Positions 19,577 to 21,585 of a stretch of DNA of 36,477 bases are shown here, one piece after another. The first letter of the stretch is position 1; the number at the start of each line of letters is the position of its first letter. The notes below the pieces were generated by a model that was not told where the DNA came from, did no database searches, and worked only from the letters and a program-made list of their open reading frames with translations. The stretch lies in contig WRDI01000006.1 in assembly GCA_009783515.1 (NCBI GenBank), positions 1 through 36,477 on the forward strand. Reading direction: 5' to 3'. This DNA is from Bacillota bacterium (GTDB lineage Bacteria; Bacillota; Clostridia; Christensenellales; Pumilibacteraceae). Made by a program: the position numbers and the translations under genes.

Positions 19577-19701
19577 CAATGCGCAATGCTTAATGCGCAA
19601 TGCTCAATGGCGGATAAATTTTAGTAATGTGCCTTGAATGTTAAGAATTGATACGCTTAAAAAAACGCGACCGACATTGCGCATTAAGCATTGCGCATTG
19701 T
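19576..19701. repeat. Perfect 27-bp inverted repeat of 7-bp units at the CPBP2 stop
   Basis: Arms 19576-19602 and 19675-19701 are exact reverse complements with a 72-bp centre. The left arm reads CAATGCG, CAATGCT, TAATGCG, CAATGCT, CAATGG. It begins with the last base of the CPBP2 stop (19574-19576), and the right arm ends 24 bp before rlmH. The same words make up the repeat at 28819-28950. Confidence 0.92.
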
Positions 19702-19725
19702 AAAAAATGTTTGGACAAATATCCC

Positions 19726-20163
19726 ATGAAAAAAATTGAAATTGTCGCCGTGGGGAGGCTGAAAGAAGATTTTTTTGTCTTCGCCGCGGAGGAATATATA
19801 AAGCGTTTAGGGCGGTTTTGCGATGTCAAAACCGTTGAGTTGAGCGAAGTTGGCGGCAAAGCAAAGGAAAGCGAGGCGATTTTAGCGGCGGTCAAAAATC
19901 GGCGTTTTTGGTTGTTAGATATTGCGGGCGAACAGCTTGACAGCGAGAGCTTTGCCGCGCTACTTGATAAGGAATGTCAGGGCGGCTTGGCTGTTTTTGT
20001 GATAGGCGGTAGCGAGGGCGTGAACGAAAAGGTATTAGAAGCGGCGGCGCGGCGTATTAGTTTTGGGAAATTCACATATCCGCATAGGTTGATGCGAGTG
20101 ATGCTGCTTGAGCAGGTTTACCGTGCGATGACGATTATCGAGGGGATGCCGTATCATAAGTAG
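19726..20163 (+). CDS. rlmH: 23S rRNA (pseudouridine1915-N3)-methyltransferase RlmH
   Basis: RlmH is a SPOUT methyltransferase that methylates pseudouridine 1915 of 23S rRNA on assembled ribosomes. The 145-residue product has FVIGGSEGV (the SAM-binding knot region) and the diagnostic C-terminus LMRVMLLEQVYRAMTIIEGMPYHK in its expected order. It is slightly shorter than the usual 155-160 residues, with the difference in the middle. The start at 19726 matches the family N-terminus (KKIEIVAVGRLKE); an upstream in-frame ATG lies inside the inverted repeat. Confidence 0.95.
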   Translation: MKKIEIVAVGRLKEDFFVFAAEEYIKRLGRFCDVKTVELSEVGGKAKESEAILAAVKNRRFWLLDIAGEQLDSESFAALLDKECQGGLAVFVIGGSEGVNEKVLEAAARRISFGKFTYPHRLMRVMLLEQVYRAMTIIEGMPYHK

Positions 20164-20174
20164 GTATAAGATTA

Positions 20175-20332
20175 GACTTCCCAACAAAACTCACATAGTC
20201 GTCTAACGGCGTCTTTTCGCCGGGACGAAATCCTTGCTCGGCAGGTACGTAGCGCTGGACCCCCGCCTCGCAAGTTTCCGTCCCGGCGAAAATCCGCTCG
20301 TTATCCGACAGCGTTGAGTTTTGCAAGAAGTC
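20175..20332. other. Long imperfect palindrome, candidate structured RNA or MITE-like element
   Basis: Paired segments in nested order: GACTTC with GAAGTC; AAAACTC with GAGTTTT; TCG with CGA; AACG with CGTT; TTTTCGCCGGGACG (20214-20227) with CGTCCCGGCGAAAA (20279-20292, 14 bp perfect); then CTTGC with GCAAG inside. Only the apex of about 30 nt is unpaired. A second small hairpin, TACGAAG with CTTCGTA, follows at 20338-20368. There is no credible coding potential. Confidence 0.75.
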
Positions 20333-20371
20333 TATTATACGAAGAAGGATTCGTGGTCTTGCTTCGTAGCA

Positions 20372-20434
20372 GGGATTAGGTATTGGGTATCGGATAGTGC
20401 CGGATTTTAGGATAACAGTTAACTGATATTGACC
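20372..20434. repeat. Degenerate 7-bp tandem repeat (GGTATCG family)
   Basis: Units GGGATTA, GGTATTG, GGTATCG, GATAGTG, CCGGATT, TTAGGAT, AACAGTT, AACTGAT and ATTGACC run without loss of register. The first half matches the words of the mfd repeat and the second half resembles those at 4638. A short hairpin, AAGTGTG with CACACTT, lies a little further on at 20466-20486. Confidence 0.65.
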
Positions 20435-20509
20435 GCCGAGAAAAATCACCCCGCCCCAAGCAGGGAAGTGTGTGCTCGGCACACTTTTATGTTACTAAGG
20501 TATATTCAG

Positions 20510-20611
20510 GTAAAGCCGGCACTTTATGAGGTTTTTAGCACAAATATCCGTTTGTATAAAGGCGCGATACAAACGAGGCCGTACGGAAAGCGGTAATATC
20601 GCCGGTTTTAC
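20510..20611. other. Second structured non-coding segment upstream of the M14 gene
   Basis: GTAAAGCCGGC (20510-20520) pairs with GCCGGTTTTAC (20601-20611) at 10 of 11 positions. Inside, CGTTTGTAT (20549-20557) pairs perfectly with ATACAAACG (20567-20575). The layout is a closing stem with an internal hairpin, as in a leader RNA, but it matches no riboswitch consensus I can recognise. Confidence 0.45.
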
Positions 20612-20616
20612 GTTAA

Positions 20617-20665
20617 TACACCAACCTTACCTGATCCCTTGTACCTGATCCCTTCACCAACCCCC
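20617..20665. repeat. 7-bp tandem repeat (CTGATCC family)
   Basis: Units TACACCA, ACCTTAC, CTGATCC, CTTGTAC, CTGATCC, CTTCACC and AACCCCC are in register, so the clearest visible repeat is 14 bp long. Confidence 0.7.
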
Positions 20666-20736: not shown

Positions 20737-21585
20737 ATGTATACTTACTCAAGACTTAACGAGGATTTGGCATACCTATCCTACAGCGGAATCGACGTCG
20801 GCTCTATCGGGACGAGCATAATGGGCAACTCCATCCCATACATTCACGTGGGCGAATACTGCCACCCGCAGAGCATAATCACGGGCGGCATCCACGCGCG
20901 CGAAAACGTCACCTCACTGCTGGTAGTGCGGCAGGCGTTTAGGGCGGCGTTTAAGCGCTGCGGATTTGAGGGCGGAATTTATTTTGTGCCCATGGTCAAC
21001 CCCGACGGCGCGCTTTTGCTGGAAAAAGGCTCCTGCGCCATGGGTGGAAGGGCGGAGTTTTTGTGCAAAATCAACGGAGGTGAGGACTTTTCGCTGTGGA
21101 AGGCAAATGCCGCGGGGGTGGACCTTAATAATAATTTTGACGCGCTGTTCGGGCAGGGCGTGGGGCAGGTGAAGGATCCCGCGCCACAGGGTTACGCGGG
21201 TCCGCACGCCTTTTCCGAGCCGGAAACAAAAGCGTTACGCAGTTTTACCGTCAGCGTCGCGCCGCGCATAACGGTGAGCTATCACGCGATGGGACGGGAG
21301 CTTTACTGGTATTTTTTTCAAGAGGGGGAGGAGCGCGAAAGAGATTTAAGGATTGCAAAAAGGTTGGAGGCGGCGACGGGGTATGTGCGGGTGGACAGCG
21401 ACTGCGGCTCGAGCGGCGGGTACAAGGATTGGTGCATACAGAATTTGCGGATTCCTTCTTTTACGATCGAGATTATCGGCGGGTGCGGCAAAAAGCATCC
21501 TATTGATTGTTGCGACTTGGACGGCGACTGGGAGGCGAATAAGAACGTGCCGTATATTGTGGCGGATGCGGCGGGAGAGGTATAG
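20737..21585 (+). CDS. M14 family zinc carboxypeptidase
   Basis: This is a 282-residue M14 peptidase with the complete zinc site: H53 and E56 in GGIHARE and H183 in SYHAMG. The catalytic glutamate is E245 in FTIEIIGG, and the GGYKDW segment before it is typical. There is no signal peptide, which suggests an intracellular enzyme, for example one cleaving gamma-D-glutamyl-diaminopimelate in recycled peptidoglycan peptides; that role is inferred. GAGGT lies just before the ATG. The gap to the upstream gene is the largest gene-free stretch in the window and is rich in hairpins. Confidence 0.88.
   Translation: MYTYSRLNEDLAYLSYSGIDVGSIGTSIMGNSIPYIHVGEYCHPQSIITGGIHARENVTSLLVVRQAFRAAFKRCGFEGGIYFVPMVNPDGALLLEKGSCAMGGRAEFLCKINGGEDFSLWKANAAGVDLNNNFDALFGQGVGQVKDPAPQGYAGPHAFSEPETKALRSFTVSVAPRITVSYHAMGRELYWYFFQEGEERERDLRIAKRLEAATGYVRVDSDCGSSGGYKDWCIQNLRIPSFTIEIIGGCGKKHPIDCCDLDGDWEANKNVPYIVADAAGEV

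Follow-up and report, generated by a model that had tools for sequence, protein, structure and literature searches.

Downstream of rlmH, the window (the whole stretch of 36,477 nucleotides analysed here) carries a long, highly paired non-coding element, which raises the question of whether it is a structured RNA or mobile DNA of palindromic form. Our analysis indicates, with a probability of about 0.94, that it is a non-autonomous MITE with IS5-type ends and an ANT target duplication, presumably moved by an IS5-type transposase supplied in trans. The second option of the sequence-only reading was thus borne out by dispersed copies with target-site duplications and by ends shared with IS elements, and the element, though genuine, is bacterial mobile DNA of an ordinary type.

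Analysis of the flanks revealed that the exact borders of the 160-bp element (20174-20333, no strand assigned) are set by a flanking 3-bp direct repeat; the span first proposed, 20175-20332, placed the element correctly, with each end one base short and the direct repeat left out. The fold statistics, the copies and the duplication-defined bounds identify the element as a MITE that forms an imperfect palindrome along its entire length. For 20175-20332 the predicted fold energy is -72.8 kcal/mol (plus strand, z -7.83) and -95.0 kcal/mol (minus strand, z -11.68), and 0 of 200 dinucleotide shuffles reached the fold energy, in agreement with the earlier claim of pairing beyond chance. Likewise, the estimate of about 120 paired nucleotides in 158 compares well with the 61 pairs (122 nt) in the minus-strand structure of the window copy with its duplications, and the proposed 14-bp perfect stem was found as TTTTCGCCGGGACG/CGTCCCGGCGAAAA, the core of the 22-nt central arms (20209-20230 and 20276-20297), which enclose a loop in the unstranded feature 20209-20297. 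The 160-bp element contains no transposase gene, and the open reading frames overlapping it are unsupported chance frames only.

The left terminal inverted repeat, AGACTTCCCAACAAAACT (20174-20191, plus strand), is a CCCAAC variant assigned from its sequence, while the right one, AGACTTCTTGCAAAACT (20317-20333, minus strand), is identical to the left end of an autonomous IS at locus L077. Both ends, AGACTTC and GAAGTCT, run on into the near-full-length palindrome, and the element is bounded by the target-site duplication ATT, which immediately precedes AGACTTC at 20171-20173 and is repeated immediately after GAAGTCT at 20334-20336 (neither repeat being stranded). Searching the 140 contigs (1.49 Mb, 86% complete) of the assembly that contains the element revealed no fewer than eight copies, at unrelated sites and with differing flanks, on contigs C6 (the window), C8, C89, C56, C54, C112, C7, C111 and C25. 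On C8, C89, C56 and C112 the contig starts or ends inside the element, as would be expected of a repeat too long for short reads to bridge; the copy number, which comes from sequence searches, is therefore a lower bound. The copies share the end consensus AGACTTC[CCAAC or TTGC]AAAAC, the CCCAAC variant recurring in the left ends of C8 and C7 and the right ends of C89 and C56. Their interiors vary: the C54 copy has an enlarged centre, the centre of the C111 copy has diverged and is still palindromic, and the C7 copy has lost most of its interior. The two-ended copies are flanked by ATT/ATT (window), AAT/AAT (C7), AAT/AAT (C111) and ATT/AAT (C54), so that the target duplication is exact in three of four and mismatched in C54. 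Many genomic copies with target duplications had been named beforehand as support for a MITE, and both were thus observed.

To place these ends in a wider context, we scanned GTDB genomes for TAGACTTCTTGCAAAAC. At least 120 stretches matched, chiefly from Campylobacterota and also from Candidatus Fukatsuia, archaea and Clostridia; about 30 chance matches were estimated for a 17-mer in that amount of GTDB DNA, but chance does not explain inverted ends that occur in pairs. Many short, internally unrelated palindromic elements of other phyla bear the terminal inverted repeat AGACTTCTTGCAAAAC, and the matches listed included 47 non-redundant two-ended short elements (53-271 bp). Among these listed elements, the base preceding TAG is the same as the one following CTA in 91% of the 47, against 42% expected when flanks were exchanged; other offsets stand out less, and positions -2 and +2 are almost always A and T, respectively. 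As read from these flanks, the 47 elements carry a 3-bp ANT duplication around AGACTTC...GAAGTCT. ANT is the target duplication of bacterial IS5 transposons (PMC4482050). In viral contigs, ten matches to the inverted repeat were found, none with a partner end, and the element core pattern had no match. Because AGACTTCTTGCAAAAC occurs on unrelated palindromic MITEs in Campylobacterota, an aphid symbiont, archaea and Clostridia, one might suppose that full-length hairpin MITEs repeatedly arise or are favoured on the IS5 group with ends AGACTTCTTGCAAAAC and target ANT, a suggestion we consider rather unlikely; the folded single strand would then perhaps aid transposition or act as a shield for such MITEs.

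Two complete autonomous IS elements with these ends were identified. The first, 901 bp long and flanked by ATT/ATT, lies in an archaeal MAG labelled Candidatus Bathycorpusculum (L077:5469-6369); the second, 885 bp long, with ends AGACTTCTTGCGAAACT...GGTTTCGCAAGAGGTCT and flanks ATT/ATT, comes from the window's own taxonomic family (G032:C56, L174:1075-1959). Their transposases share 64-67% protein identity. The L077 transposase is encoded in two overlapping frames, connected by a -1 shift at an A-rich stretch; the query with both frames joined by eye matched the NCBIfam IS5 family transposase NF033581 (E 3.7e-63) and the Pfam family PF13359 (DDE_Tnp_4; E 1.6e-24), and HTH_Tnp_4 was also matched. 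The transposase of the 885-bp IS likewise lies in two frames. In both genes, at L077:5469-6369 and L174:1075-1959, the split falls at an A-rich site (CCTAAAAAAAGCAAAAAT; CCAAAAAGGGGCAAAAAT), and these two IS5-family transposases are probably made via a -1 frameshift, which the sites suggest to be programmed. The sequence-only reading had recognised no known family, which stands for the internal sequence and fails for the ends, since these belong to a known IS family. Comparison of the element's internal sequence with the IS revealed nothing obvious in common beyond the terminal inverted repeat.

Taken together, the short length (160 bp), terminal inverted repeats, target duplications, dispersed copies and ends common to autonomous IS elements are those of a MITE. 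In the proposed mechanism, a DDE transposase of the IS5 type, provided in trans, would bind the ends of about 17 bp (AGACTTCTTGCAAAAC), move the 160-bp segment and insert it at an AWT site, generating the 3-bp duplication; the hairpin would arise from the near-palindromic arms, and a host function need not be assumed. Judging from the ends and duplication, a transposase of the IS5 group presumably moved the window element itself. In its own genome assembly (86% complete, 140 contigs, broken at repeats), neither PF13359 nor a full-transposase match was found, and the element is therefore non-autonomous there. It may be orphaned in this genome, as the missing transposase may have been lost or may fall outside the incomplete assembly, and its present mobilisation would appear to be blocked for want of the enzyme.

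The closest known system is the IS5 family with ANT duplication (NCBIfam NF033581, transpos_IS5_4), which has the same 17-bp terminal inverted repeat and ANT as the window element and which we take to be the ISL2 subgroup of ISfinder. These IS elements contain a transposase, whereas the window element, at 160 bp and without a transposase gene, is alike at the ends only. Comparable bacterial MITEs include MITECca01 of Cardinium, which derives from an IS982 element (PMC9769881), and QMITE2 of Coxiella (PMC10969869). Like them, the window element is short, non-coding and multi-copy, with IS-shared terminal inverted repeats, direct repeats and a transcript predicted to be stably folded; it differs in its parent IS family and in pairing nearly end to end. 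It also differs from bacterial MITEs in general in that a parent IS was not found in the same genome. No description of this MITE family was found in the literature searched, whose coverage is partial, and the family is apparently undescribed.

The position of the element bears on a possible host role. It is intergenic and lies directly after the stop codon of rlmH (19726-20163, plus strand, best ATG start), an open reading frame with a 46% identical homologue in G001, the only other genome of the genus. The gene that directly follows rlmH in G001 lies downstream in the window (20737-21585, plus strand); the gap between the two genes measures 24 bp in G001 versus about 570 bp in the window, where it holds the 160-bp element and other repeats. 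The G001 gap contains neither an inverted repeat nor the element, and no conserved rlmH unit therefore includes the hairpin; the exact pre-insertion site is unreadable at the nucleotide level in G001 because the intergenic DNA has diverged too far. A different MITE of 78 bp, sharing these ends but with an unrelated core and mismatched flanks (AAT/ATT), is present elsewhere in G001. The place directly past the rlmH stop codon, the very stable hairpin and the ability of prokaryotic MITE transcripts to form such structures (PMC10969869) would suit a MITE that the host has co-opted, its hairpin now retained to terminate transcription in both directions or to stabilise the mRNA 3' ends of rlmH and its neighbours. 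We regard this as improbable: no T-run follows the main stem, the single terminator-like prediction within the element is a minor stem of 5 pairs, and other copies occupy unrelated places, some (C7, C25) lacking an arm or the interior. The copies thus give no sign of constraint on the fold.

A structured RNA 3' of rlmH, either a non-coding gene or a cis-regulatory element, with its fold conserved and most likely on the minus strand, is still less credible. The C6, C8 and C111 copies fold much better on the minus than on the plus strand, a difference that arises from G-U pairs, and in an alignment of five copies 87.9% of cells are paired in the minus-strand structure. Six pairs are changed on both sides, compared with 3.2 in shuffles (six being reached in 27 of 500), the control being weak with five related rows. 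However, in the C54 copy it is the plus strand that has a slight advantage in stability, and C-to-T changes in one arm also give a one-strand G-U excess; homogenisation of the palindrome arms by conversion could also shape the pairing pattern. Rfam covariance models gave no match to the element at the gathering score or at E <= 5, and sequence conservation was found neither across the family or order nor at the rlmH locus of G001. Family- and order-wide DNA searches with the internal sequence returned only short matches (E about 4e-4 to 1e-3), all taken as chance; the one in a relative at L018 (G033:C1:274683-274724) spans 42 bp at 81% identity and falls within an apparent coding sequence. The copies bear transposon-like target duplications, and the weak covariation signal does not outweigh the transposon evidence; the RNA option raised by the earlier reading is not upheld.

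Least plausible of all is a palindrome of the REP/ERIC type with no relation to IS5, for instance one mobilised by a REP-associated tyrosine transposase or by a TA-duplicating transposase of the IS630 type. Such an element would also be palindromic, intergenic and multi-copy with TA at both ends, but the duplication spans three bases (ANT), the position just outside TA agrees in 91% of the elements among the matches listed, and the same ends occur on IS5-family ISs. A TA-duplicating (IS630/ERIC-like) element was our first idea and was ruled out by the three-base duplication statistics. ERIC of enterobacteria is an imperfect palindrome of comparable length, intergenic and multi-copy; it differs from the window element in its ends and target duplication and is unrelated in sequence.

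The assignment as an IS5-type MITE strikes off one candidate non-coding RNA and illustrates that a strong fold score can stem from a transposable element. The combination of terminal inverted repeat and ANT offers an easy annotation key for apparently undescribed IS5-type MITEs in bacteria and archaea, also in fragmented metagenome assemblies, where contigs break at such palindromes.

Other repeats surround the element. A second interspersed repeat of about 130 bp, unrelated to the MITE and with ends GTAAARCCGGC, lies at 20493-20623 (no strand assigned) and recurs at no fewer than nine further places in the same genome; it adjoins the MITE copy on C8 as well. A third repeat family, of about 28-40 bp around ACGAAGAAGGATTCGTGGTCTTGCTTCGTAGCAGGG, occupies 20342-20383 and is matched at about 20 other sites in the genome. 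On the 5' side of rlmH, at 19578-19710, inverted repeats of the type AATGCGCAATGCTTAATGCGCAATGC are present, and similar runs flank other sites in the genome (L025, L031).
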